Both the position numbers and the translations under genes were made by a program. A stretch of DNA of 64,000 nucleotides from Phycisphaera sp. (GTDB taxonomy: Bacteria > Planctomycetota > Phycisphaerae > Phycisphaerales > UBA1924), in the NCBI GenBank assembly GCA_025916675.1, contig CP098402.1, positions 801,205-865,204 on the forward strand. Direction: 5' to 3'. Positions 1,676 to 45,313 of this stretch are shown here, piece after piece. A model generated the notes under the pieces. That model was not told the origin of the DNA and did not search any database. It was given only the letters and a program-made list of their open reading frames with translations. Within the stretch, counting starts at the first letter, position 1. Each line of letters begins with the position of its first letter.

Positions 1676-2743
1676 CTAGCGGCCCAACTGGCCGGTGTTG
1701 ATCTCGGTGCCGCCGTAATCGACGCCACGCAAGCCGCCACGTGTCCAGCGGTAGTAGCCGTCGACCGGGGCCGGGCTGCGGGCCTGTGGCTCCCACTGCG
1801 AGGCCGAGGCGTCGAACACGAACCGCATAGCCCGATCTTCGCGGGGGAAGCGTGGATCCCAACCGAGGTTGGAGTCGTCTGTCACACGCTGGCCGGCGGA
1901 CAGATCGAACATGAGCATCGTGATCTTGGCGTCCGGGAAGGCGTAGAACAGCTCCAACTTGCTGTAGCGATCGTTGCTGTCGTGCATGAACACCTTCTGG
2001 GCCGGGGCATCAACCGACGTGATGCGCAGGCCACCAATGGTCGCGTTGCCGGGGATGCGGTACGAGCGGTGGCTGCTGGGATTCTGGTACATCCGCTCGG
2101 ACTCGTTCCGGCCAGCGTCGTACGACGCGGGGACCGCTTGGTAGCTCGAACTGTACGGCCAACGAATGTTCTCATTCGTCGCGGGCTCCTGGAAGGGGAA
2201 CCAGTAGTTGCTGTCGAACAGTTCCCTGGGATCCTGCTGCCAATTCAGGCGGTAGCGATCCATGGGCGAGACGACCATCTTCTCGGGCAGCTTCTGGGCC
2301 AGGTAGTCGTTCACCACAAGGTGGGTGTAGAGCACGTTGGGAATCCAGTTCGAGGGCTGGTTGAACTCTGGGCGGTTGGCCCGGAAGCGGATGATGTCGG
2401 TCGCCTGGGCGGCCGCGGCGTCCGTGGCGTCGGCACCGCTCAGGGCACCACCCTCCTTGCTCTGGCGGAACTGGGCCACGTCCTGCTGGTCGTTCCAGGT
2501 GAACGAGTAGATACGATCCTGGTAATCAGCCGAATACGTACCCAGCGCGAAACCAAATTGCTTGAGATTGCCGAGGTCGATCGCGAGTCGCGCCGTCTTG
2601 CGTGCCTCGCCCAAAGCGGGCAGCAGAACGCTGATGAGCAACGCGATGATCGCGATGACCACCAGCAACTCGATCAATGTAAAGCCCGACCGGGCGGAGC
2701 GAGTCCTGCGCCCGCTGGCCATTCGATTGAGTATCTGATTCAT
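1676..2743 (-). CDS. Prepilin-type N-methylation domain protein, array copy 1
   Basis: Secreted pseudopilin-like protein of 355 residues. A basic leader ends in [19 protein letters not shown], the prepilin peptidase site (cleavage after Gly, Glu at +5), followed by a hydrophobic helix and [12 protein letters not shown]. The body contains [21 protein letters not shown] and [11 protein letters not shown], and it ends in the array-wide signature [18 protein letters not shown]. The common planctomycete H-X9-DG tail was not seen. GGAG lies about 7 bases before the ATG. It is the last copy in transcription order of five paralogues on this strand. Neither prepilin peptidase nor secretion ATPase genes are nearby, so the role (minor pilin, surface filament or other secreted protein) is open. 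Confidence 0.88.
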
Positions 2744-2973
2744 GGTGTTCTCCGTTGCCGCCCCGTGGGGCTCCTTGGATAGCGAACCGAACGTGCGCTC
2801 AGGTCGATAGCAAACAATTAGATGTCAAACAGACTTCCCGGCGTCCATCGAGCGTTGGTCGACGGCCTGCCTCGGACGATTCATGTTCGCCAGCCGCTGG
2901 CTGGCGGATCCGCACGAGCAACTTCCTGGTAACACCTGGTGCGGTCGCGGAACGAATTGCCATATACGACAAC

Positions 2974-3008
2974 CAAAAATCCGGCCGGTGTGTTCCCACA
3001 CCGGCCGG
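2974..3008 (-). terminator. Intrinsic terminator after pseudopilin 2
   Basis: A perfect 12-base-pair stem (2981-2992 with 2997-3008, loop TTCC) is followed on the minus strand by ATTTTTGG. It lies 41 bases past the stop at 3050. The rest of the 306-base spacer 2744-3049 holds the leader of copy 1; I found no clear promoter there beyond an isolated TTGACA (minus strand, 2823-2828). Confidence 0.88.
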
Positions 3009-3049
3009 CGATTTATTCATCAAATCAGAATGTCAACCCTTCGCGGGCC

Positions 3050-4093
3050 TCAGAACGGCTGGCCGGTATCGATCTCGGTGCCGCCAAAGTCGATGCCCTT
3101 AAGGCCGCCGCGGGTCCAGCGGTAATAGCCCGTCACCAGCGAGTCGGCCCGGGCCTGGGGTTCCCACTGCGAACCACCGACAAACCTGTACGTTGTCGGC
3201 TGGGCAGACCTGGGTGAATTTGGCATCCACCCCTCGTTCGAGTCGTCGGTCACGCGCTGGTTGGCCGACAGATCGAACATCAGGATGGTGGGCTTGGCAT
3301 CGGGGAAGGCGTGGTACAGCGGGGTCTTGGTGTAGCGATCGACGTTGTCGTGCATGAAGACCTTCTGGGCCGGAGCGTCGACGGCCGTGATCCTCAGTTC
3401 ACCCAACTTCACCGTGCCGGGAACGAAGTACCCCCGGTGCGTGGCTTGCGAGATGCGGCTGCCCTCGAGCGATGCGTCGTAGGACGCTGGCACGACCTGA
3501 TAGCTCGAGCTGTAGGGCCAACGCTTGTTCGAGCCACTAGCCGGCTCTTGGAATGGGAACCAGTAGTTGCTGTCGAACAATTCCTGAGGATCCTGCTGCC
3601 AGTTGAGGCGGTAGCGATCCATAGGTGAGACCACCATCTTTTCGGGCAGCTTCTGGGCCAGATAGTCGTTCACGACCAGGTGCGTGTACAGCACGTTGGG
3701 GATCCAACTCCTCGGCTGGTCGAAGTCGGGCCGAGTCGCGCGGTGGCGGATGATGTCGGTCGCCTGGGCCGCTGTCGCTTCGATCGGCGTGCCGCCTCGC
3801 AGATCGCCGCCGTCGCCCTGCTCGTTCCGACGGATGTCGTCCTGATCGTTCCACGTGAACGCGTAGATGCGATCCTGGTAGTCGGCCGAGTATGTGCCCA
3901 TGGCGAAGCCGAACTGCTTGAGATTACCCAGGTCGATGGCCAAGCGGGCGGTCTTGCGAGCCTCGCCCAATGCGGGCAGCAGCACGCTGATGAGCAGGGC
4001 GATAATCGCGATCACCACCAGCAGCTCGATGAGGGTGAATGCACGCAGCCCACGGCCACGACCGGTTACGTCGACAACAGAACGCGTCTTCAT
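3050..4093 (-). CDS. Prepilin-type N-methylation domain protein, array copy 2
   Basis: Pseudopilin-like secreted protein of 347 residues and close paralogue of its neighbours. I start it at ATG 4093 (MKTRSVVDV), with AAGGGGAC just upstream, instead of at the long upstream extension, which would run across the promoter. The processing site is [19 protein letters not shown], so the residue before the cut is Ala where the other copies have Gly; prepilin peptidases usually want Gly. The body shares [21 protein letters not shown], the block around [16 protein letters not shown], and the C-terminal [18 protein letters not shown]. It is transcribed alone between its own promoter and terminator. Confidence 0.87.
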
Positions 4094-4193
4094 GGTTGTC
4101 CCCTTTTGTCCGTCTCGGACTGTCCCGCGGATATCTGGCCCGGCCGGTGAATCACCGAATGGCAGGTGGCCCGACCGTGAAGCAATTTCACCC

Positions 4194-4222
4194 AGAATAC
4201 CCGAAAACTCGCCATTTGTGAA
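4194..4222 (-). promoter_or_regulatory. Sigma-70-like promoter of pseudopilin 2
   Basis: On the minus strand TTCACA (4217-4222), a 17-base spacer, then TATTCT (4194-4199). This would give a leader of roughly 94 bases. The sequence just upstream of the -10 (GAGTTTTCGGG) matches the same place before copy 3 (GAGTTTTCGTG). Confidence 0.6.
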
Positions 4223-4283
4223 GAACAAGTTTCTTGTCGGGTTCAGAACACCGGGATAATACTCAAATTTAAAGCAGATATAC

Positions 4284-4311
4284 AAGAAAACCCGTATGAA
4301 GGTCATACGGG
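4284..4311 (-). terminator. Intrinsic terminator after pseudopilin 3
   Basis: A 9-base-pair stem (4291-4299 with 4303-4311, 3-base loop) is followed on the minus strand by TTTTCTTG. It sits between copy 3 and the promoter of copy 2. Confidence 0.82.
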
Positions 4312-4353
4312 CAACATGAAATTCGGGCTATCGAGATCAGGCTTTCTGGCCGT

Positions 4354-5409
<1,056 letters not shown>

Positions 5410-5507
5410 GGTGTTCCCCTAAAACAAGTCCTTGGATGTGAACGCATCGAGCCGCAATTCCTAGTAAACACCGATCGAGCAGGCCGGTATTTTTGCGGCA
5501 TCGGAGC

Positions 5508-5536
5508 AGCTTACACGAAAACTCAAAGCGATTCCA
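5508..5536 (-). promoter_or_regulatory. Sigma-70-like promoter of pseudopilin 3
   Basis: On the minus strand TGGAAT (5531-5536), a 17-base spacer, then TAAGCT (5508-5513). The predicted leader is about 92 bases. The block from the A-rich stretch through TCGTGTAA is shared with the promoter of copy 4. Confidence 0.55.
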
Positions 5537-5568
5537 GTAAATTTTTCGTTCGAGAATCAAACAAATAC

Positions 5569-5607
5569 CAAAAAAAGCACGCCCTGCACCGGGAGGTGCG
5601 GGCGTGC
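5569..5607 (-). terminator. Intrinsic terminator after pseudopilin 4
   Basis: A long stem (5577-5590 with 5595-5607, one bulged base, loop GGGA) is followed by seven T on the minus strand. It lies 26 bases past the stop at 5633. Confidence 0.9.
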
Positions 5608-5632
5608 GACTGTTCAGAAATCGGGGGGCCTC

Positions 5633-6682
5633 TTAGAAGGGCTGGCCGGTATCAACTTCGGTGCCGCCGTAATCGACACCCTTCAGTCCGCCGCGGGTCC
5701 AGCGGTAGTAGCCGTCGACGACCGACGGGCTACGAGCTTGTGGCTCCCATAGCGACCTCGTGGCGTCGAACTGGAACCGCATCGTTTGAGCGGTTGTCGG
5801 GGAGTTTGGCCTCCAACCGAGGTTGGAGTCGTCGGTGACGCGCTGGCTGGCCGAGAGGTCAAACATCAAGATGGTGCACTTCGCGTCGGGGAACGCGTAG
5901 AACAACTCCAGCTTGCTGTACCGATCGTTGCTGTCGCTCATGAACACCTTCTGAGCCGGGGCATCGACGGCGGTGATGCGCAGGCCGCCGATCTTGCCGC
6001 CCAGCACGCGGTACGAGCGGTGACTGCTCGTGCTCTGCTCGATGCGTTGTCCCACAAGTCCGGCGTCGTACGACGCGGGGACGACCTGGTAGCTCGAGCT
6101 GTACGGCCAGCGCTTGTTGCTCTCGGAGGCGGCCTCTTGGAATGGGAACCAGTAGTTGGTGTCAAAGAGATTCTGGGGGTCCTGCTGCCAGTTGAGGCGG
6201 TAGCGGTCCATCGGCGAGACGACCATCTTCTCGGGCAGCTTCTGGGCCAAGTAGTCGTTCACGACCAGGTGCGTGTACAGAACGTTGGGGATCCAACTCC
6301 TCGGTTGGCTGAAGTCGGGTCGGTTAGCCCGGAACCGGATGATGTCGGTCGCCTGAGCCGCGGATGCTTCGAGCGGCGTGCCACCTGACAGGCCGCCCTC
6401 GTCGGACTGCTGGCTGCGGCGGATGTCGTCATCGTTGTTCCACGTGAACGCGTAGATGCGGTCCTGATAGTCGGCCGAATACGTGCCCATGGCGAACCCG
6501 AACTGCTTGAGGTTGCCCAGGTCGATGGCCAGGCGGGCGGTCTTGCGGGCCTCGCCCAGGGCGGGCAGCAGCACGCTAATGAGCAGAGCGATGATCGCGA
6601 TCACCACCAGCAGCTCGATGAGGGTGAAGCCACGCAGGCGCCGGCTGATGCCGACCGTGGCAATGGTGCTTCGAGTCTTCAT
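5633..6682 (-). CDS. Prepilin-type N-methylation domain protein, array copy 4
   Basis: Pseudopilin-like protein of 349 residues. Leader [18 protein letters not shown], then [18 protein letters not shown] and [12 protein letters not shown]. It keeps the family blocks [28 protein letters not shown] and [14 protein letters not shown]. Its middle (SHRSYRV) and the segment with [19 protein letters not shown] are closest to copy 1, while its first half looks like copies 2 and 3, a mosaic pattern. The end is [24 protein letters not shown] lies 9 bases before ATG. Own promoter and terminator. Confidence 0.88.
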
Positions 6683-6782
6683 GTTTTGAAACTCCCCTAT
6701 TGGGCCTTGGACGGCTTAGCAGATGCACGCAACAGCGACTAAGTGGCACGCTGCCGTATCGGGAGCGTTGCCCGACGGTGAT

Positions 6783-6811
6783 AGATTACACGAAAGTTCC
6801 GGCAATGTCCA
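6783..6811 (-). promoter_or_regulatory. Sigma-70-like promoter of pseudopilin 4
   Basis: On the minus strand TGGACA (6806-6811), a 17-base spacer, then TAATCT (6783-6788). The predicted leader is about 94 bases, nearly the same as for copies 2 and 3. Confidence 0.62.
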
Positions 6812-6833
6812 GTCAATTTTTACAGGCAATAAG

Positions 6834-6860
6834 TAAAAACCCGCATTGTCCATGCGGGTT
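6834..6860 (-). terminator. Intrinsic terminator after pseudopilin 5
   Basis: A 9-base-pair stem (6838-6846 with 6852-6860, 5-base loop) ends in a T run on the minus strand (6834-6839). It lies 29 bases past the stop at 6890. Confidence 0.8.
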
Positions 6861-6889
6861 CTGTGGTCATGCGGAGCTGTTCGGGGAGA

Positions 6890-7933
6890 TCAGAACGGCT
6901 GGCCGGTGTCGACCTCGGTACCGCCGAAGTCGATGCCCTTGATACCACCGCGGGTCCACCGGATCTTGCCAGGGGTGATGTCGGTACTGGCACCAGTGAA
7001 GGTGGGGGCCTCCCACGCACGCGGCTGGTAACTGATTCGCGTGAATTGGGCGCTCGTGGGTTGGTAGGGAAGCCAGCCCAAGTTGTAGTCTTGGCTCAGG
7101 CGGACGACACAAGAGCCGTCGTACGCTTGTACAGGCTGCCGGCAATTGTCATAACCCAGCCAGACGGGCTTCTTGCCGAAATGCCGTCCTTCGGCATCAT
7201 GCATTTGCACCTTCTGGGAGGGGTGATCGACGTCCGTCAGCCGCACATCGCCGAGCCTCGTGCCACCAGTGCTGCCGTACGAGTAGTGAGTGCCGCCCTG
7301 ACGTACACGATCTGAGGCGATGGCCGTGCGGTCGTACCCAGCGGGCACGAGTTGGTAGCTTGAGCTGTAGGGCCAACGCTTGTTGCGTGCGGTGGCGGTG
7401 GGCTGGCGCGGGAACCAGTAGTTTGTGTCAAACAAGTCCGCCGGATCCTCCTGCCAGTTCAACCGGTCGCGGTCGGCCGGTGACACCACCATCTTCTCGG
7501 GCAGCTTCTGCGCCAAATAGTCGTTCACGACCAAGTGGCTGTAGTACACGTACGGGATCCAACCTGTCACGCGGGGCATGTCATCACGTGTTGCCCGACG
7601 CCGCAGGATGTCGATCGCTTGATCAGCGGCTTGCTGCATCGGGCCGCCACCGGCGCGGAGGTCGGGATATTCTGATTGCGCGGAGTCTGCCTGATCGTTC
7701 CAGGTAAAGCCCCATTGCCGATCTTGGTAGTCGGCCGAGTAGGTGCCAGTAGCGAAGCCAAACTGCTTCATGTTGCCCATTCCGATCGCCAAGCGGGCGG
7801 ACTTGCGGGCTTCTCCCAGGGCGGGCAGCAGCACGCTGATGAGCAGGGCGATGATCGCGATCACCACCAAGAGCTCGATGAGGGTGAAGCCGGGGCGGTC
7901 GCCCAGCCGGCGGAGCCTTGAGGTTGGCATCAT
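6890..7933 (-). CDS. Prepilin-type N-methylation domain protein, array copy 5 (most divergent)
   Basis: Pseudopilin-like protein of 347 residues. I choose ATG 7933 because AGGAAGG lies 9 bases upstream and the length then matches the other copies; the frame is open to 7960. Processing site [21 protein letters not shown]. It differs from copies 1-4 throughout ([51 protein letters not shown]) yet keeps the framework and the end [17 protein letters not shown]. It is the first copy in transcription order and could be the founder or a functionally distinct member. Confidence 0.87.
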
Positions 7934-8073
7934 GTCGTCCATCCTTCCTGGATAGCCCATCGATCCATGGGCGTTTGTCGAGGCGTGTGACCTCGGAGCA
8001 AGAACCCCCTACGACCCGGCGAACGGTTGATCTGAACCGCGAAAATATCCGAGCCTGTCCTTGACGTTTTCTC

Positions 8074-24140: not shown

Positions 24141-24555
24141 CGGAGAAACGCTAACAGATTGCGATCAGGCCGGCAGCAAGGTCAATCTGGGAAGCCCTTT
24201 CTTGACAGTTCGGGCTGCAACCCGGTTGGAGGAACGCACGAATATGTGCATGCCAAGATGCTCGGAGAGGGAAAATAGGCTGGACAAGTGGGGGTGCCCA
24301 CTGGTATCCTGACCCCGAGTAGATCCGCGTGCAAGGCGGGAGCCGCCGACTGGCGGTATCCTTCGACGACCGATGGAGTATGCGGTCGAGCGAGGGCCCT
24401 GCATTTCGCCCCACGCGAGCGTGCTGGTAAGACCTTACCAGCGAACAATGAGGCCCCGACCCAACCAGCCCCGGGCATGGGGCCCACCCAGTGAACCCGC
24501 ACAAGGGTCCAACCCACGGCACGGCTGAACGCCGATCGATATCTGGAGCATGAGC
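24141..24555 (+). other. 415-base gene-free leader region of the giant surface protein
   Basis: No convincing gene. It holds a near-palindrome at 24423-24442 (arms GCTGGTAAG and CTTACCAGC, 2-base spacer) and a smaller hairpin at 24342-24356. It could be a long structured 5' leader or an operator. I could match it to no riboswitch, SRP, RNase P or tmRNA consensus. Confidence 0.4.
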
Positions 24556-27500
24556 ATGAGTGGCCAACGTAACGGATCGTCCTGCCACGCCAAGGCCCCC
24601 TTCGGCCTCGGCCGTCTCCGTTCGCTGTACAACCGGGCCGGGCGTGCGCCCGCGAAGCGCTCCGCTGCCAAAGAAGTGGGCTCGGGCCAGGTGATGGAGC
24701 AACTCGAAGCTCGCATCCTGCTGGGTGGCGACCATCCCAGCTTTGATTTGCCGCTCTCGCCGACCTCGGGTACCGAGATCATCATCAACGGCACGAACGG
24801 TGAGGGCACCGAAGACGGCACAATCGAGGGCGTGACACCCGACGTGGCCGACGACCTATTCCGCTTCGTGGCACCCGAGAGCGACTTCGTGACGGTCTGG
24901 GGCGACACCGTCAACGTGGGCGGCTCCGACCTGGACTCGCGCGTCGAGGTGTACGACATCGACGGGATGCTGATCGCCGAGGGCTCGTCGCAGGGCCAGC
25001 TCACCGGCGGTTTCTTCGATGACGGCTGGACGCACTTCCTGGCCGAGGCTGGCGAGACGTACTTCGTGCGCATCCTGAGCGACGTCGACAACTTCGGGCA
25101 GATGACCACGGGCGACTACACCGTGCGCATAGACGCCATCACCAACAAGAATCTGGTGATCGAGACCGATCCGATGGCCGCTCCTCCAGCACGGTTCGGC
25201 GCTGGTGCGGCGACGGGCACGATTACGATCGCGGGCGATGACGCGGTGTATCGCGTCGAGGCCGGCAGCGACAGCGCCTTCAACTCGCTCGCAACGTTCT
25301 ACGCGGGGCTCCAGAACTTCCCGCCTTCCGATCTCGACACGCGTGTGGACGTGTACAACGAGCAGGGCCAACTGCTCACCGGCAACAGCGACACGGGCCG
25401 CCTGCAGACCGGCTTTGATCTTGTCCAATCGGCCGCCGACGCGGTCTTCTTCGTTCGCGTCCGGAGCGACCGGTTCGACCCCGCCCTGACGACGGCAACC
25501 GGCGCCTACACGATCAGGGCCGAGATGGTGGCCACCACGATCGACATCGACCCGGTGACGCGGCGTGGCCAGGTGTTCGACGGCATCGCCGACGCGTTCG
25601 ACACACGCATTTATCGGTTCACGACGCAAGGGAGCGGCCTCACGTTCGCGGGCGCTGTTGGTGCCGGGCTCGTGCCGCTTCCCCAGCCGGCCCTCCGTCT
25701 CTACGACATGGACACTTCCCTGGCGGGCTTCAGCGATCTGGCTGGTCTCGCCGATCTGCAGATCCAACTCGAGACCAACACCGAGTACTTTATCGTTATC
25801 GAGACCTTCGATAACCCGCCCGGCGGCACGTACAACGTGTTCATCGAGTCGAACCACACGTTCATCCCGACGCAGGACGTTGACGACCACCAGGACCGCC
25901 CCACGGGTGAAGACCCCGATGGCGAAGACCTTGAGTTTGGCGATGACGAGGGCTTCACCAACCCCGCCCAGTTCGACTTCATCCGCCGCCAGTTCGACCA
26001 AGCCACGCCCCTGCGGTTTAGCGATCCCTTCCTGTACACCCGCACGTTTGTTGATCCCCTCGGGATGTTCGATGACGTTGTGAACCCCGTGTCAGATCGC
26101 AGCTATGTGCAGCAGGCATTGGGATCGGGCCGCATCCACAGCTTCGGCGACACCGACCTGTTCCAGTTCACCTTGCCGTTGGACATGCTGGGCGACTACG
26201 AGGGCGACGACGGAGACGAGGGTGACGCGCTCTTTGCCGGCGGCGAGGGCGACTTCATCATCAAGGGCACCGACAACGATACGGGCGGCCCGATCACGCG
26301 CAGCTTCCTGGGTATCTGGGACGCGCAGGATTGGTGGCCGGTACGCGCCGGCGTGGACATGACCATCTACTCGATGGAGACCTGGGAGTACGACCCCGAT
26401 GCCGACATCGGCGGCACGGCCCTGATCCTGGGCGGTGAATTCCAGTTTGCCGATTTCCAGGCGGCCCCGTTTGTCGCCGCATACGCCTATGACCCGCTCG
26501 TCGGAGAGTACGTGCTGACACCGCTGGCTGGCGGCCTCGACGGAGCCGTGTTCGACTTTGGCGTGTTCGACTTCGATACCACGGACGACATCGAGTCGCA
26601 ACTCATTGTCGCCGGTGAATTCACCGGTGGCATCGCGCAGTATCAGGTGCAGCCGGGCGACTTCATTGCCGACGGTGCGTTCTTCGGGCTGCCGATCCTG
26701 CCGACCGGCGGGAACGTGTACGCCATCGAGGTCTGGGATCCGGCCGATCCTGAAATGGGCGACGCGAACGAGCTTGGCTTGTATTACGGTGGCGACGGCG
26801 GATTCGTCGAGTCGATCGTCATCGTCGATGACGCCCCCGAAATCGGCCCGACGATCGACATCAACCAGGGCGCCGGTGATGGCGTCGTGCTCGACCTGAA
26901 GGTCATCCAGATTCCCGACGACATGGGCGGCGATCCCACGCCTGCACTGGCCATTGGTGGGTCGTTCGACGACGTCGACGGCCAGGGCGGCAACAACGTT
27001 GTGACCCTCAACGTCGATCCGGCGACGGCCATGAATCCGGGTGAGTTCACGTATGACATCATGGCGAACGGTGTGAACGACACGGTTCGCGCTCTCGAGA
27101 CATGGGATCGTGATGGTTCAGGCACTGACTTCGACGAGGAACTGATCGTCGGTGGCGACTTTACCGCAACGACGGGTGGTCAGGCACTGGGCTTCATTGG
27201 TACGTATACAGGCGCATGGGCGGACGTGAGCACGCCCGTGACTCTTGGCGCGACACCGGGCTTCAATGCACCGGTGCATAGCCTGCGTGTGTTCATCGAT
27301 CAAGAGTTTGGTGTTGGTACAGCGCCATTCGCCGAGAACCCGGTGCTCTACGTCGGTGGTGAGTTCACGATGGCCGACGGCATCGCTGCCAGCCGCATCG
27401 CCCAGCTCACCTTCGATCCGTTCTTCCTCGTCTGGACTTTCACCCCGATGGGCTTCGGCTCGACCGATACGGTCTTCGCCCTGGCCAACTTCAACGATGA

Positions 27501-30500
27501 ATTGCCCGACGTGTGGGATCGCGACGATCGCACCGCGGCCCGTGCACGCCTGACGATCAGCCCCGACTTCCTGCCGGGTGCGCAGACGTTCGTTCGTGTC
27601 TATGACTCGGCCTTCCGCGTGGTGTACACCAACGACACCATCGCGCCGCCATTCCCCGATCCCTCGGGCGCACTCGATCCCTCTCTGCTGGGCGCTGACA
27701 ACGATGGCGGCGACCTCGTGATCGACATCGGTGGCGACCAGGAGTCGCAGTTCTGGGCCGGTGAGACGTACTACCTCGAGATCAGTTCGATTGGTGGCAA
27801 CGGGCGCTACAGCTTCTCGATGGTCACCGACGCCCTTCCGCCCGACGTAGACGGCGATGGCACCTTCGATGACGTCATCAGCCAATACGGCGAGCCCGGC
27901 GGATCCGATCTGATCCGTTCGGAATTCGACGCGGCCCAGGAGATCGTCCTTGGCACCACCACGAGCGGTGATGGCCGCAACTTCCTGGCCCTGCCCAACG
28001 CCGCCTACCAAGTGCGCAGTTTCGATGTGACGCCCAGCGGCTTTGCCGTGACCCAGTATCAGGAACTGGGCATGATCGAGCGCATCGAGGACTTCGACAT
28101 CTTCTTCTTCCGTGCCCCTGACAACGGCACGACTGAGATCCGCTTGGCGACCCAGCAGATCACCGACGAATTCGTCGAGGACATCGTCGATCTGAACGTG
28201 GTCCCCCCAGCGCTGGACCGTCGGATCGTCAATAAGACCTACGACAGCCCGCTGGATGGCAAGATCCGTGTGTTCAACAACGACCTCCAGCTGGTGGCCA
28301 GCAATAACGACAACGATGGCTTCGCGGGCACACGCTCGCAGGAGCTCATCGGCACGCTGGACCTCATCGGCGACACGCTCTACGGCGCCGGCGACACCGA
28401 GATTGAGGGCCGCATCTTCAACAACGTCGATCCGCGCGTGGTGCTGCCGATCGAACGCGGCGAGGTCTACTTCGTCGTGGTCGAGAGCGGCCAGCTCGAC
28501 GCGTACACGGAGGATCCCGATCTGGTCGATTGGCGCCGGGCGCTGGGCTCGTACGAGTTGCTGATCAACAGCGCGCCGAACCTGGAGTTCGCCGACGACC
28601 ACCAAGATATCAGCCCGCTCTTTATCGACTTCTTCACCAACGACTCGGTTCTGCCGATCGACGAGCAGGGCCGCGGCGAGATCCGCGGCGAGATCCGGAC
28701 TCGCAGCGGCGGGGTGGAAGACAACGACGCGTTCGTGGCCTTCGCCGTGGGGTCGGGCGACATCAGCATCACCGTGACGGCCGACAACCCGGGCGAATTC
28801 CGCCCGCGGGTGACCATCTTCGATTCCGAGGGCAACCAGCGCGTCAGCCCGACTTCGGCCACGAGCACCGCTCCGGCCGAAGTGGAATTTGGAGCCATCA
28901 AGGGTGAGCGCTACATCATTCGCGTGGATGCCAACGTGGGTGAGCAGGGCGGCTATACCATCGAGGTTGACGGCCCGGCTTCGGTCGACGATTATGCCGA
29001 TGCACACCGTCCGATTGGTGCCCAGGATATCGAGATCCTGGACTTCCTGGGCCGTGGTGAGATTTCCGGTGCGATCGACGCATCGGGCGACACCGACATC
29101 TTCAAGTTCACCACGCCGGGCTTCGGTGAAGTCCAGATCGATGTGGAGTCGACCGAGTTTGGCTTTGATCCCATCGTGCGTGTGTACGAGGTGAGCGAGG
29201 ATCCCGCCGGGAACGCGATCTTCCTGCCGATCGCCTTCAACGACAACCGCAGCGGCGGCACGGTCGATGCTCGCGTGCTGTTCCCCGTCAGCGGTGCCGA
29301 TCGCACCTCGACGCTGACCATGAAGACCTTCAATGACTACTACGTCGTCGTCGAGGGTGCCAACCAGCAGGGCAGCAGTGGCACGTATGACCTGACGATC
29401 ACCTCGACGCCGACCGACGACCACCCCGACGAAGGTGAGTTCGCGTTCGCTTCGGATCTCTTCGTTGCTCCGTTGACCGGGCAGGGCGAGCGTGCGGGCC
29501 TCATCGAGGTCGAGAACGACGACGACCTCTTCACGTTCATCGCGCCCGCCGGCGGCGAGGCGCTGCTCTCGGCCGTCAGCAACGAGCTGAGCACGTTGCG
29601 GCCGACCATCCGCGTGTTCGATGCCGACTTCAACCCCGTCATCAACCTGACCACGGGCACCGATGCCGTCGTCACCGGCCCCGACGGGATCTTCTCGGCG
29701 GCGAGCTATCGCTTCGACGTCACGCGGGCGGCCCGGTACTACGTGCTGGTCGGAAGCGATGCGACCGGCAGCGCGACGACCGGCACCGGCGCGTACACGC
29801 TCAACGCGACCACGCCCACGGCCGACGAGCACGCCAACGAGGGCGAGTTCGAGCTGGCTAGCGAGATCGTGCTCTCGACCGAGACCGGTGCGGGCGAGCG
29901 TGCGGGCAACATCGCCACGATCAACGACACCGACCTGTTCTTCTTCGACAGCATCGTCGACGCGTCGACCACGCCCCAGGAGCACACCGTGCGTGTGGAT
30001 GCCTCGGGCGAGACCGTGACCCCGGTACTCAGCGTGTTTGACGCCGGCACGTCGCTGCTCTCGACCGTCGTTGATGGCGGTGCGGGCGACCTTGCTCCCG
30101 AGGACGGCATCATCGAAGTCGATATCTCGGTTTCTGGCACGCCCGGCCAGCGTTTCTTCCTTTTGGTCGAGTTGGACGACTCGAGCATGTTCCCCACCGG
30201 GGCGTACACGGTCACCGTCGAGGGGCCGATCCCCGACGTCATCCCCACGCCGGGCGACGACCACGCGAACCGCGGCCAGTTCAGCCAGGCCACGGTTATC
30301 GATCTGGACGAGCGCACCGGCAACGCCGAGATCACCGGCCGCATCGATCCTTCGGCCGACAGCGACCTGTTCCGCATCAACCCGCTTTCCGGCGGCCTGA
30401 CCTTCGTGCAGGTTGTCACGCCCAGCGGTTCGCTTCTGGACGTTGACCTTACCGTCTTCGAGCAGTTCGGCGGCGGCGGCACTCCGGTGCAGATCGACCG

Positions 30501-31992
30501 TGATACCACCGGCTTCCAGGGTGTCAATGCCGGTGTCGAGTTCGACATCGCCGGCGTGGGCACGCCGTACTTCCTGCTGGTGAGCGGCCTGAACTCCGCG
30601 ACCGGCGAGTACACGCTGCGTGTCGATACGCAGCCCGAGACCTTCTTCCTCTATTACCCAGAGGGCTTCGTCAACGAGGACATCAGCGAGTTCGTTTCCA
30701 TCAGCAACCCGAGTGCGAGCGAGACGGTCAGCTACACCATCCGCTTGTTCTACGAGAACCCCGACCTTGCCGACATGACACTGGTCGAGAACGAGACGCT
30801 CCAGCCGGGCAGCCGCGGCGGTGTGACCATCGCCGAGCGCGGCGGGTTCGTCTTCCCGGGTGTGCAGACCGACGAGCCGTACTCGATCGTGATCGAGTCG
30901 ACCGGCCAGCTCGGTGCCACGCTCTCGCATTATGACTTCGAGGGCGCGATTGGCGAGGCCTTCACGCCGATCACCAGCGACACCTGGGCCTTCGGTCGCC
31001 TCGAGCGCAGCCCGGGCCAGGTCGAGTCGTTCCTTGTGTTCTTCAACCCCAACCCCCACGACGTGATCGTGACCCTGACCGCCAACAACGGCGGCTCAGA
31101 GATCCAGATCCAACAGACCGTCGAGGCGACCAGCCGCGGTGGCTGGGAGTTGAGCGCCCTGGGCCAGTTGCCACTGGGTGTCTTCGGTGCCACGCTCACC
31201 AGCGAGCCGGCCGACACGACCGGGCAGCCGAGCATCGGCATCGTCGCGGCCCTGAGCCACTACGACCTGGTCGCCGGCGAGGCCTTCGGCGTGCTGGGCG
31301 ATCCGACCGGCGGTTCGACCTTCAACGTCGTCCCGAGCTTTACCTCGGGCTCGGAGGTCACCGGTGAGCTCGTGCTCTACAACCCGGGCGATGCCGCTGC
31401 CACCGTCACGATCACCAGTGACTACGTGACCGCGCCATTGCCAAGTGTGCAGGTCCTCCGCACCGTCAACGCCGGCCAGACCGTGGTGCTCCGCGCCAGC
31501 GACCTGAGCCTGGCTGCCGATGTCACGGCCGGTATCACTATCTCGTCGACGCAGCCCCTGGCAGGCGTGGTTCTGGAACAACAGAACGGCGATGCGAACG
31601 CGATCGCGACGCAGAGCACTGCGGCGTCGACCTGGTTCTTCGGCGATGCCTTCCTCAACAGTGCCGAAGCCGGCCTGACCTACTTCGAGACCCTGAGCTT
31701 CTTCAACCCCACCAACGAGTCGATCGCCGTGGAGATCACCCTGTTCTTCAACGATGGCACGACCGAGAACACCGTCCGCCAGGTCGGCGCGGGCGGCTTC
31801 AACAACCTGCGCTTGGACGCCTTCGCTCCGATCCTTGATCGCCAGATGCTCAACTTCTTCTCGATCCAGGTGAGCTCGAACCTGCCGATCATCGCATCGC
31901 TGACGCACTACGACCTCGAGCTCGACGGCGGCTGGACCAACGCCGGCGCCCCGCTCGGCCTGACCAACCCGCTGGAGCGCATCGTCATCTGA
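24556..31992 (+). CDS. Giant surface protein with LEPR-XLL-like motif and PPC-type repeats
   Basis: 2,478 residues; ATG 24556 has GGAG 7 bases upstream, ATG 24550 is too close to it. A basic N-terminus is followed by MEQLEARILLGGD (residues about 48-60), a variant of the planctomycete LEPR-XLL export motif. Residues 60-530 hold beta-sandwich units of the pre-peptidase C-terminal (PPC) type (TYFVRILSDVDN, GAYTIRAEM). Residues about 530-990 hold repeats with LILGGEF, LIVAGEF, LAIGGSF and LIVGGDF, suggesting a propeller. From about 1345 to 2020, five more PPC-like units begin with DDH or DEH at roughly 130-145-residue spacing. The last 450 residues are four units of about 108 residues, three with LSHYD or LTHYD. 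Very acidic, no cysteine-rich part, no end anchor seen. Likely an outer-surface or secreted structural or adhesive protein. Confidence 0.85.
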   Translation: MSGQRNGSSCHAKAPFGLGRLRSLYNRAGRAPAKRSAAKEVGSGQVMEQLEARILLGGDHPSFDLPLSPTSGTEIIINGTNGEGTEDGTIEGVTPDVADDLFRFVAPESDFVTVWGDTVNVGGSDLDSRVEVYDIDGMLIAEGSSQGQLTGGFFDDGWTHFLAEAGETYFVRILSDVDNFGQMTTGDYTVRIDAITNKNLVIETDPMAAPPARFGAGAATGTITIAGDDAVYRVEAGSDSAFNSLATFYAGLQNFPPSDLDTRVDVYNEQGQLLTGNSDTGRLQTGFDLVQSAADAVFFVRVRSDRFDPALTTATGAYTIRAEMVATTIDIDPVTRRGQVFDGIADAFDTRIYRFTTQGSGLTFAGAVGAGLVPLPQPALRLYDMDTSLAGFSDLAGLADLQIQLETNTEYFIVIETFDNPPGGTYNVFIESNHTFIPTQDVDDHQDRPTGEDPDGEDLEFGDDEGFTNPAQFDFIRRQFDQATPLRFSDPFLYTRTFVDPLGMFDDVVNPVSDRSYVQQALGSGRIHSFGDTDLFQFTLPLDMLGDYEGDDGDEGDALFAGGEGDFIIKGTDNDTGGPITRSFLGIWDAQDWWPVRAGVDMTIYSMETWEYDPDADIGGTALILGGEFQFADFQAAPFVAAYAYDPLVGEYVLTPLAGGLDGAVFDFGVFDFDTTDDIESQLIVAGEFTGGIAQYQVQPGDFIADGAFFGLPILPTGGNVYAIEVWDPADPEMGDANELGLYYGGDGGFVESIVIVDDAPEIGPTIDINQGAGDGVVLDLKVIQIPDDMGGDPTPALAIGGSFDDVDGQGGNNVVTLNVDPATAMNPGEFTYDIMANGVNDTVRALETWDRDGSGTDFDEELIVGGDFTATTGGQALGFIGTYTGAWADVSTPVTLGATPGFNAPVHSLRVFIDQEFGVGTAPFAENPVLYVGGEFTMADGIAASRIAQLTFDPFFLVWTFTPMGFGSTDTVFALANFNDELPDVWDRDDRTAARARLTISPDFLPGAQTFVRVYDSAFRVVYTNDTIAPPFPDPSGALDPSLLGADNDGGDLVIDIGGDQESQFWAGETYYLEISSIGGNGRYSFSMVTDALPPDVDGDGTFDDVISQYGEPGGSDLIRSEFDAAQEIVLGTTTSGDGRNFLALPNAAYQVRSFDVTPSGFAVTQYQELGMIERIEDFDIFFFRAPDNGTTEIRLATQQITDEFVEDIVDLNVVPPALDRRIVNKTYDSPLDGKIRVFNNDLQLVASNNDNDGFAGTRSQELIGTLDLIGDTLYGAGDTEIEGRIFNNVDPRVVLPIERGEVYFVVVESGQLDAYTEDPDLVDWRRALGSYELLINSAPNLEFADDHQDISPLFIDFFTNDSVLPIDEQGRGEIRGEIRTRSGGVEDNDAFVAFAVGSGDISITVTADNPGEFRPRVTIFDSEGNQRVSPTSATSTAPAEVEFGAIKGERYIIRVDANVGEQGGYTIEVDGPASVDDYADAHRPIGAQDIEILDFLGRGEISGAIDASGDTDIFKFTTPGFGEVQIDVESTEFGFDPIVRVYEVSEDPAGNAIFLPIAFNDNRSGGTVDARVLFPVSGADRTSTLTMKTFNDYYVVVEGANQQGSSGTYDLTITSTPTDDHPDEGEFAFASDLFVAPLTGQGERAGLIEVENDDDLFTFIAPAGGEALLSAVSNELSTLRPTIRVFDADFNPVINLTTGTDAVVTGPDGIFSAASYRFDVTRAARYYVLVGSDATGSATTGTGAYTLNATTPTADEHANEGEFELASEIVLSTETGAGERAGNIATINDTDLFFFDSIVDASTTPQEHTVRVDASGETVTPVLSVFDAGTSLLSTVVDGGAGDLAPEDGIIEVDISVSGTPGQRFFLLVELDDSSMFPTGAYTVTVEGPIPDVIPTPGDDHANRGQFSQATVIDLDERTGNAEITGRIDPSADSDLFRINPLSGGLTFVQVVTPSGSLLDVDLTVFEQFGGGGTPVQIDRDTTGFQGVNAGVEFDIAGVGTPYFLLVSGLNSATGEYTLRVDTQPETFFLYYPEGFVNEDISEFVSISNPSASETVSYTIRLFYENPDLADMTLVENETLQPGSRGGVTIAERGGFVFPGVQTDEPYSIVIESTGQLGATLSHYDFEGAIGEAFTPITSDTWAFGRLERSPGQVESFLVFFNPNPHDVIVTLTANNGGSEIQIQQTVEATSRGGWELSALGQLPLGVFGATLTSEPADTTGQPSIGIVAALSHYDLVAGEAFGVLGDPTGGSTFNVVPSFTSGSEVTGELVLYNPGDAAATVTITSDYVTAPLPSVQVLRTVNAGQTVVLRASDLSLAADVTAGITISSTQPLAGVVLEQQNGDANAIATQSTAASTWFFGDAFLNSAEAGLTYFETLSFFNPTNESIAVEITLFFNDGTTENTVRQVGAGGFNNLRLDAFAPILDRQMLNFFSIQVSSNLPIIASLTHYDLELDGGWTNAGAPLGLTNPLERIVI

Positions 31993-43791: not shown

Positions 43792-45313
43792 GGAATCGCT
43801 CGGTCTGCTCGACGCTCCGCCCCACGTACTTCATCGGGTCGAGCAACTGGTCCTCGGTCAGCAGGTGGTGTACGGCCCCGAACGCCTCGTCGGCCCGCAG
43901 CCGTTCGATTAGGTCGTTGTCCTGGCCCTCCTGCTTGACCTTCATGCCAGCCGCCTGAGCGTGCACGCGGATCTTCTCGTGCAGCTCCTGCCGATCGCCG
44001 CCGAGCTTGACGGCCTCCATCATGATGTTCTCGGTCGCCAGGAAGGGCAGCTCAGCCATCAGGTTCTTGCGGACCATGGCCTCGTGCACGACCAAGCCCG
44101 ACGCCACCTGGTGCATCAGGTCGAGCGCGCCATCGAGGGCGAGGAACGCTTCCGGCAGAGACAACCGGCGATTGCTCGAGTCGTCGAGTGTGCGTTCGAG
44201 CCACTGCGTGGCGGCGGTGTCGTAGGCGTTGCCCACCAGGTTCATCACGAAGCGCGTGAGCCCGCAGATCCGCTCGCACTTCATCGGGTTGCGCTTGTAG
44301 GGCATGGCCGACGAGCCGATCTGCTTGGCACCGAATGGCTCGTCGATCTCCTTGCGGTTGCTCAAGAGGCGGATGTCGGTGGCGATCTTGTGGAGGACGG
44401 AGGCGGTGGAGGCGAGATCGGCGAGGACGAAAGTGTCATAGACGCGCGGATACGTCTGCGTCGTGAGCTTGTGTCGTGGTACCCATTTGTTGTACTCGCA
44501 TAGTCGCTCAATAAAGTTCGCTTCGAAGTAATCGATCAGATCCAGATCACCATCGAAGAGATTCACGAACGATGCTTGCGTTCCAGATGCTCCGCGTAAG
44601 CCTCGCCACAGCATCCGCAGCGAGTCCGGATCCGCTTGGTCGCCTACACGATCTTCACACAGCGACAGTTCGTAGCCCCATTGAGCGGCACGGCGTCCAA
44701 CCGTTGTGGGCTGAGCGGCTTGATAGTGTGTGAACGCCAGAGTGGGAGTCTCTCGCCATTGATGGGCGAACTCGCTGAGAGAACGGATCACGCTTGCGAG
44801 CTTCAATTGCGTGAGCCGTGCAGATTCCAAGATCGTTAACAAATCCGCATTACACACCACATCCTGGCTCGTACACCCCAGGTGGATGATCCCCTTCGCC
44901 TTGGGGCACTGCTCGCCCAGGCAGTGCACGTGGGCCATCACGTCGTGGCGCAGGTCGCGTTCGAGCTCGCTCGCGCGGGCGATCTCCTCGTCGGTGATGC
45001 CTCGCTCGACCACCGCTCGAAGCTCATCGAGCTGTTCCTTGGTGACCAAGGGGCCTTGCCCCAACGAGCCCCCCGCGCGAGCGGGGGGAATGGCCGCATC
45101 ATGTGCCGGAGGTACCGCAGTCCCCTCGCTTGCGCGAGGGGCTCGTTGGGATCCCCAGCCCTTCGTCACCTCGTGCTGGGCCTCGGCCACCGCCAGCCAG
45201 ATCCGCCGCCAGGTGTTGAACTTGTGCCTCGGGCTCCAGATGCGGAGCATTTCCGGGGACGCGTTGCGGGAGGCGAGCGGGGAGGTGTACGTGTCGTTGG
45301 CTGAATTGGTCAT
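43712..45313 (-). CDS. purB: Adenylosuccinate lyase with an in-frame palindromic insertion
   Basis: Converts SAICAR to AICAR and adenylosuccinate to AMP in purine synthesis. 533 residues; relatives of this type have about 480-490. N-terminus SPEMLRIWSPRHKFNTWRRIWLAVAEAQ resembles the eukaryotic-like type. Active-site features: GIIHLGCTSQDVVCNADL, FTHYQAAQPTTVGRRA and the fumarate-lyase signature GSSAMPYKRNPMKCERI. Residues 55-85 (PPARAGGSLG and neighbours) come from the element at 45060-45150 and have no counterpart in the family. Bases about 44425-44875 have a lower GC content and codons such as TTA, TCT, GCA and AAT that the flanks avoid. The frame is intact, so the protein is probably functional. 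Confidence 0.9.
   Translation of the reverse strand: MTNSANDTYTSPLASRNASPEMLRIWSPRHKFNTWRRIWLAVAEAQHEVTKGWGSQRAPRASEGTAVPPAHDAAIPPARAGGSLGQGPLVTKEQLDELRAVVERGITDEEIARASELERDLRHDVMAHVHCLGEQCPKAKGIIHLGCTSQDVVCNADLLTILESARLTQLKLASVIRSLSEFAHQWRETPTLAFTHYQAAQPTTVGRRAAQWGYELSLCEDRVGDQADPDSLRMLWRGLRGASGTQASFVNLFDGDLDLIDYFEANFIERLCEYNKWVPRHKLTTQTYPRVYDTFVLADLASTASVLHKIATDIRLLSNRKEIDEPFGAKQIGSSAMPYKRNPMKCERICGLTRFVMNLVGNAYDTAATQWLERTLDDSSNRRLSLPEAFLALDGALDLMHQVASGLVVHEAMVRKNLMAELPFLATENIMMEAVKLGGDRQELHEKIRVHAQAAGMKVKQEGQDNDLIERLRADEAFGAVHHLLTEDQLLDPMKYVGRSVEQTERFLKEVVEPLRERYGADLDSLGGSDRGV
45060..45150. repeat. 91-bp palindromic element inserted in purB
   Basis: An imperfect inverted repeat of 29 bases (45060-45088 against 45122-45150, 3 mismatches). 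The outer 11 bases CCCAACGAGCC / GGCTCGTTGGG match perfectly, and each arm itself folds into a hairpin (8-bp stems around 45069-45088 and 45122-45141). Centre of 33 unpaired bases. It carries no gene and resembles a small non-autonomous or REP/RPE-like element. It is flanked by similar 10-mers (GTGACGAAGG and GTCACCAAGG on the minus strand). Confidence 0.82.

Follow-up and report, generated by a model that had tools for sequence, protein, structure and literature searches.

A REPIN within the reading frame of planctomycete purB, and the recurrence of extra residues at the same loop

The purB gene of a Phycisphaera sp. contains a 91-bp palindrome which, read on the minus strand, spans residues 55-85 of the 533-aa adenylosuccinate lyase (PurB). 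How does a palindrome come to lie in frame within the gene for an essential enzyme, and why at this place? The gene is part of a stretch of 64,000 nucleotides, here termed the window, from a genome designated G000 (other G numbers are relatives compared with it). The explanation favoured as a whole, with a probability of about 0.78, is that a mobile REPIN moved by a RAYT landed in a loop of PurB and survives there through the permissiveness of that loop. The features concerned are in Table 1.

Table 1. The palindromic element and its host gene, in window positions
Feature	Position	Strand	Basis or remark
REPIN (assignment nearly certain), 91-bp palindrome: two inward-facing REP units + spacer	45060..45150	.	
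REP unit 1 (CAACGAGCCCCCCGCGCGAGCGGGGGGAATGGCCGC)	45062..45097	+	covariance-model match G000:C1:846266-846301, 57.1 bits
Spacer separating the REP units	45098..45112	.	between both covariance-model matches
REP unit 2 (CAACGAGCCCCTCGCGCAAGCGAGGGGACTGCGGTA)	45113..45148	-	covariance-model match G000:C1:846317-846352, 49.5 bits
purB, adenylosuccinate lyase, 533 aa	43712..45313	-	reads through the element without a stop
Helix-helix loop with insert, residues 55-88	45050..45151	-	low model confidence; congener homology split at 54/88

The palindrome, its family and its transposase

The palindrome has arms of 29 nt that match at 26/29 positions, and the imperfect 29-base inverted repeat of 91 bp described in an earlier sequence-only reading is borne out. 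The ends are identical as that reading had it, though over the outer 13 nt and not 11. A hairpin of its own is present in each arm, again as described. Folded as single-stranded DNA, the element reaches −41.3 kcal/mol, whereas its shuffles average −20.9 (z −7.7), and none of 200 does as well. Allowing up to 3 mismatches, the window has two copies of the 25-nt REP core, both of them inside the element; the mean over 100 shuffles is 0.00. A palindrome arising by chance in a GC-rich gene, and immobile, has in its favour that the genome is GC-rich and that the fold of the adjacent purB stretch, too, is somewhat better than that of its shuffles. Against it stand the fold score, the two cores where none is expected and the 24 loci that the REP family occupies in G000. 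The element is real and unlikely to be chance; the chance reading is vanishingly improbable, being already ruled out by the repeat family.

The whole-genome search that the earlier reading had proposed returned 39 matches in G000 to the element with its short flanks. A covariance model of the 36-nt REP unit (28 sequences, E ≤ 0.01; both units of the purB element belonged to its own training set) was then used on 25 genomes, with the best 150 first-look candidates scored per genome. It finds 40 units at 24 loci in G000. Fifteen of these loci have two inward-facing units, eight have one, and at the remaining locus a RAYT gene stands between two units. The offset from unit to unit in the REPINs is typically 43-44 bp (range 36-78). 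The consensus reads (A)ACGAGCCCC..., with a conserved core ACGAGCCCCTCGCGCGAGCGAGGGGAAT and a foot ACGA(G). Units are also present in G003 (19), G006 (9), G009 (8), G001 (6), G014 (4), G005 (3) and G004 (1); the remaining 17 genomes have none among the 150 candidates scored for each. By a home-made codon-usage caller supplemented with homology, 22 of the 24 loci in G000 are intergenic and the remaining two are in frame, within purB and priA. Many copies, mostly intergenic and some in frame, is what had been predicted for a mobile family.

Pfam Y1_Tnp matches two places in G000. One is a 156-aa open reading frame at G000:C1:97002-97472, an IS200-like (Y1/HUH) transposase gene (PF01797, 34.5 bits against a cut-off of 23), in which the motifs NHVH, a W-T pair and Y----Q, as YVRNHQ, can be made out by eye. 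It is flanked, in inverted orientation, by REPs of the purB-element family, at 96936 (+) and 97493 (−), as is usual where REPs accompany a RAYT. The second RAYT (at about 1762168, locus L311) is flanked by a different inverted REP, GAGCCGCGTGCGTGAGCACGCGG, of which the window has no copy at up to 3 mismatches. At two loci, near 1396321 and 1814034, GAGCCGCGTGCGTGAGCACGCGG also stands close to a single REP of the first family. RAYTs probably act on REP hairpins when the DNA is single-stranded. The element consists of two inverted REPs that fold as one long hairpin, its family is dispersed, multi-copy and mostly extragenic, and a RAYT gene of the same genome is flanked by the same REP inverted; it is almost certainly a REPIN.

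REPINs are described as inverted REP doublets, dispersed and mostly extragenic (PMC3116915, PMC2817692), and the present family is like them in each respect. In the Pseudomonas case of those papers the most abundant 16-mers occur 1,067 times and overlap genes in only 14 cases, whereas the present family has a copy within the reading frame of an essential enzyme, at a site that recurs across the planctomycete family. The foot also differs, ACGA(G) in place of the GTAG or GTGG of the REPs described there. Class 3 TnpA-like HuH proteins are reported from Planctomycetes and Acidobacteria (Quentin 2018, PMC6006769). In the RAYT of G000 the NHVH, WT and Y----Q reported for that class can be made out by eye, and it is flanked by repeated hairpins like a REPtron. 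It lacks the fuller motif YV[VI][AENY]EQ, having YVRNHQ, and the reported 5′ foot beside the hairpin is CnGA whereas here it is ACGA. Because of the foot, it is class-3-like only.

In-frame intragenic monomers and dimers of GTAG/CGTC REPs, in repair genes among others, have been described, as have different REPs at about the same recB site in two Xanthomonas species (Di Nocera 2013, PMC3733652). The purB-element family is likewise found in frame inside genes. Its consensus has neither tetranucleotide tag of those superfamilies and so it is not filed in them, and the recurrence here, in at least 20 of 141 genomes and with several REP families, compares with two recB genes in that report. The same paper already names Planctomycetes as REP carriers, and with the class 3 proteins this leaves the earlier statement that no planctomycete counterpart was described only partly valid. 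The main text of PMC3733652 makes no mention of purB. The earlier comparison with Rickettsia palindromic elements holds for the in-frame insertion of a palindrome into genes. Those elements, as described, are about 150 bp, with a conserved peptide, and in frame in many unrelated genes (PMC10969869), whereas the present one is 91 bp, a REP doublet and tied to a RAYT, so that REPIN/RAYT systems are the better comparison. A search of main texts, mostly of freely accessible papers, for mobile or palindromic insertions in adenylosuccinate lyase gave none that looks relevant, judged by title and start of abstract. REPs within reading frames have precedents in other bacteria; what is new here is a single landing site in such frequent use.

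Filled and empty purB genes

PurB of G000 has the Pfam domains Lyase_1 (PF00206) and ADSL_C (PF10397), and its model has the fold of human-type ADSL (5nxa, Z 46.0, rmsd 2.4 over 457 residues). The linker is 70 aa in G000 and 38 aa in the congeners, and it is since this net addition is 32 codons (96 nt) that the frame is kept. The addition of residues 55-85 with the frame intact is as first read, though 91 bp by itself is no multiple of three. The AlphaFold model (36 sequences) has a mean pLDDT of 88.8. The insert is in a low-confidence loop between model helices 28-50 and 92-104, with values below 50 for residues 60-74 and block averages of 45-68 over 51-90, and on this model the loop appears disordered.

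An internal purB start after the element was considered, and rejected because residues 1-54, beyond the element, are conserved in congeners. The codon-based gene caller did place the start downstream of the element, and the case is a warning that annotation can misplace gene starts. A decayed target duplication, suggested from similar 10-mers on both sides (taken here to be the VTK codons flanking the insert, EVTK...LVTK), is not sustained. The empty purB genes of G012 and G126 already hold both flanks, as VTR/LTK and LVTK, so these provide no evidence of duplication.

A purB gene is present in all 41 relatives examined. The alignment that had been proposed shows the residues to be missing from most relatives of PurB. 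All six congeners are without the insert, with residues on both sides conserved and the match breaking at about 54/88. Among the best 80 of 593 PurB loci from named genomes, 53 share a linker of 29 aa by the measure of that comparison and two, both from Phycisphaerales MAGs (L201, L197), have an insert. On these comparisons the insert is not an ancestral feature of PurB. Neither uniqueness of the element nor conservation of its residues across homologues, which together would have spoken against mobility, was found.

Of 150 genomes of the same family 141 had a match, and a genome was counted when the match continued through a lengthened linker. Extra residues are present at the purB loop in at least 20 of the 141, G000 and at least 19 others. 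In all 19 the insert is in frame, and the sequences differ. (G119, a 50-aa piece, was dropped; G116 has 14 extra residues and is treated as filled in the tree below but not here.) Folded as RNA, the insert has a z of −3.7 or lower in 11 of the 20 (G000, G158, G101, G076, G142, G045, G100, G144, G054, G125 and G024), the adjacent purB stretches used as control ranging from −3.0, in G000, to 1.9. In 11 (G000, G135, G076, G045, G114, G104, G054, G125, G123, G120 and G118) it scores at least 19 against a REP that flanks a RAYT, whether in its own genome or in another. With thresholds for both set after the values were known, 17 of the 20 filled genomes have a strong palindrome, a match to a RAYT-flanking REP or both, and several REP families are involved. 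The inserts of G161, G106 and G019 have neither. An 85-nt piece of the G045 insert has 38 matches in G045, 25 in G054, 19 in G125, 18 in G114, 8 in G104 and 0 in G142. A query from locus L106 (330-438, covering the insert at 399-506 in part) matched purB in G144 and, over 24-44 nt, 6 other places of that genome; it also matched purB elsewhere.

Relatives of the G000 RAYT are present in 12 of 26 genomes, many flanked by inverted repeats of their own, and the query had no match in the other 14. Nine genomes negative by this search have a filled purB (G045, G054, G142, G144, G100, G024, G118, G106 and G019). Where a genome has both insert and RAYT, the insert matches the REP flanking that RAYT in 7 of 11 cases (G000 itself, G135, G076, G114, G104, G125 and G120), with local scores of 23-28 against medians of 10-16 for other genomes. 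Only for G114, G125 and G120 does the own flank match best; the inserts of G000, G135, G076 and G104 match RAYT flanks of other genomes equally well or better. There is no match to the same-genome flank in G161, G123, G101 and G158. In two genomes of one genus a RAYT gene adjoins purB, on the upstream side in one and the downstream side in the other (G076, L308: RAYT 827-1285, purB from about 1416; G114, L309: purB to 4352, RAYT 4581-5033). The REP beside the G114 RAYT matches the purB insert of its genome.

The distribution of the two states was followed on a core-only PurB tree of 60 proteins (21 filled, 39 empty), from which the linker and the variable segments had been removed and for which filled genomes were deliberately paired with relatives, a non-random choice. 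It requires 17 changes (bootstrap range 14-18, the bootstrap not having settled), at least 11 of which, gains or losses, are forced by well-supported branches. Filled and empty members occur within ten genera (g1, g3, g7, g13, g15, g47, g48, g75, g81 and g88; the empty member of g48 has a slightly long linker). Filled G120 is 96 and 95% identical in the core to empty G088 and G139, and filled G125 is 95% identical to empty G012. Such close pairs amount to a natural experiment on how RAYT-linked palindromes choose their sites or survive in them.

Tolerance, target choice and other readings

The insert is almost certainly a non-autonomous mobile palindrome (a REPIN) of the REP family, and the RAYT-type Y1 transposase of the 156-aa reading frame most likely moves that family. 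It would have landed between the helix that ends at residue 50 and the one that starts at residue 92, and would persist because the loop is apparently disordered, the net change is a multiple of three and the frame is open. The insert peptide is probably translated and tolerated. Several REP families have entered the same loop repeatedly across the planctomycete family. Insertions elsewhere in purB and in most genes were presumably purged by selection; tolerance and not target choice would then determine the site. REPINs are usually treated as extragenic, and here one loop of an essential enzyme has been entered many times, by several REP families. The case illustrates how selfish DNA may lengthen an essential protein.

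Two control genes only were compared, picked from the window without knowledge of inserts and presumed from their sequences to be D-3-phosphoglycerate-dehydrogenase-like and RNase-III-like. No excess of 15 aa or more was present in 73 near-full-length orthologues of the former from 100 genomes; among the matches listed, none exceeds the query span by more than 30 nt. Nor was there any in 139 near-full-length single matches of the latter among 142 matched genomes, the largest excess being 33 nt. In-frame REPs are nevertheless not confined to purB, since the interdomain linker of priA also holds REP-like DNA: there is an in-frame REPIN in G000 and G003 (L020, L121), and by eye REP-like DNA in 5 of 22 genomes (G000, G003, G131, G158 and G111). 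G006 has one REP in frame within an ABC ATPase gene. In G045 and G054 together, 4 of 28 loci with stronger REP matches were called genic by the home-made caller. Three are in Pfam-recognised genes of G045 (L276, L280 and L284), those for LytB/IspH, carbamoyl-phosphate synthase large chain and topoisomerase VI B.

That permissiveness of the loop is the reason for the recurrence is put at even odds. Selection for a permissive loop is still the likeliest cause, with target preference a serious rival, and tolerance alone does not obviously account for the excess of purB over the control genes. A target-site hotspot, with several RAYTs preferring this purB DNA for its sequence or single-strand structure, is on balance unlikely. 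It would explain why the point of entry, in many genomes and for different REP families, is at about the same codons, and it gains from the adjoining RAYT genes in G076 and G114, members of one genus, and from the two control genes without inserts of 15 aa or more. However, the empty sites vary in sequence and length (ExGLPV in some, EVTKxWxxPLV in others), and the second recurrent site, in priA, is likewise a protein linker, which fits tolerance as well. Lower still in probability is an adaptive insert, a peptide or mRNA hairpin that alters the regulation, stability or surface of PurB so that filled alleles are favoured. One site is used recurrently, and three helical segments of these PurB proteins show unusual diversity, both of which suit it. 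But no peptide is common to different REP families (APRASEG and PPARAGGS are common only to the inserts of one, in G000, G135 and G076), most genomes are empty and the loop is disordered in the model.

A single ancient insertion, inherited with its REPs overwritten by gene conversion and with many losses, is very improbable. The three sampled genomes of genus g69 are all filled, and many species have a longer empty linker, which could be a scar left by excision. Yet both states are present within ten genera, the inserts vary in size and in sequence family, and the core tree forces at least 11 changes, though these may be losses. Repeated entry of REPINs into a permissive loop remains the preferred account.

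Variable PurB segments and neighbouring observations

Within this family, the median identity at PurB residues 161-190, 211-232 and 251-282 is only about 25%, even where the cores are at least 93% identical (26% over 25 pairs, five of them at 50% or more). Outside the family these segments track the core, with a median of 79% at a core identity of 85-90% (7 pairs). Among 14 pairs examined, those that share an allele have dN/dS of about 0.09-0.14 in the segments, and in those that differ synonymous sites are saturated or nearly so. A few alleles are common to different genera, at 54-57% identity. From these comparisons the diversity looks like the exchange of old alleles and not fast point mutation. 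In the window itself, the corresponding stretch (44468-44833, PurB about 161-282) has a saturated difference between congeners whose cores are about 90% identical. A second length-variable place, near residue 275, was considered as an insert site and set aside, as it falls within the variable segments; no REP is seen there in the part of the alignment listed.

Because the segments look like exchanged old alleles, PurB of this planctomycete family might be a diversifying protein, with swappable alleles and an N-terminal loop that takes up REPINs as an added source of variation, driven by an antagonist or partner. This is a doubtful proposition; if true, REPINs would be raw material for remodelling the surface of an essential enzyme. 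Adenylosuccinate lyase is not named among the matches listed in a search of the literature on PurB variability.

Elsewhere in the window, similar proteins whose N-terminus is pilin-like are encoded in tandem at 1676-7942, and positions 24550-31992 hold a single open reading frame of 2480 aa.
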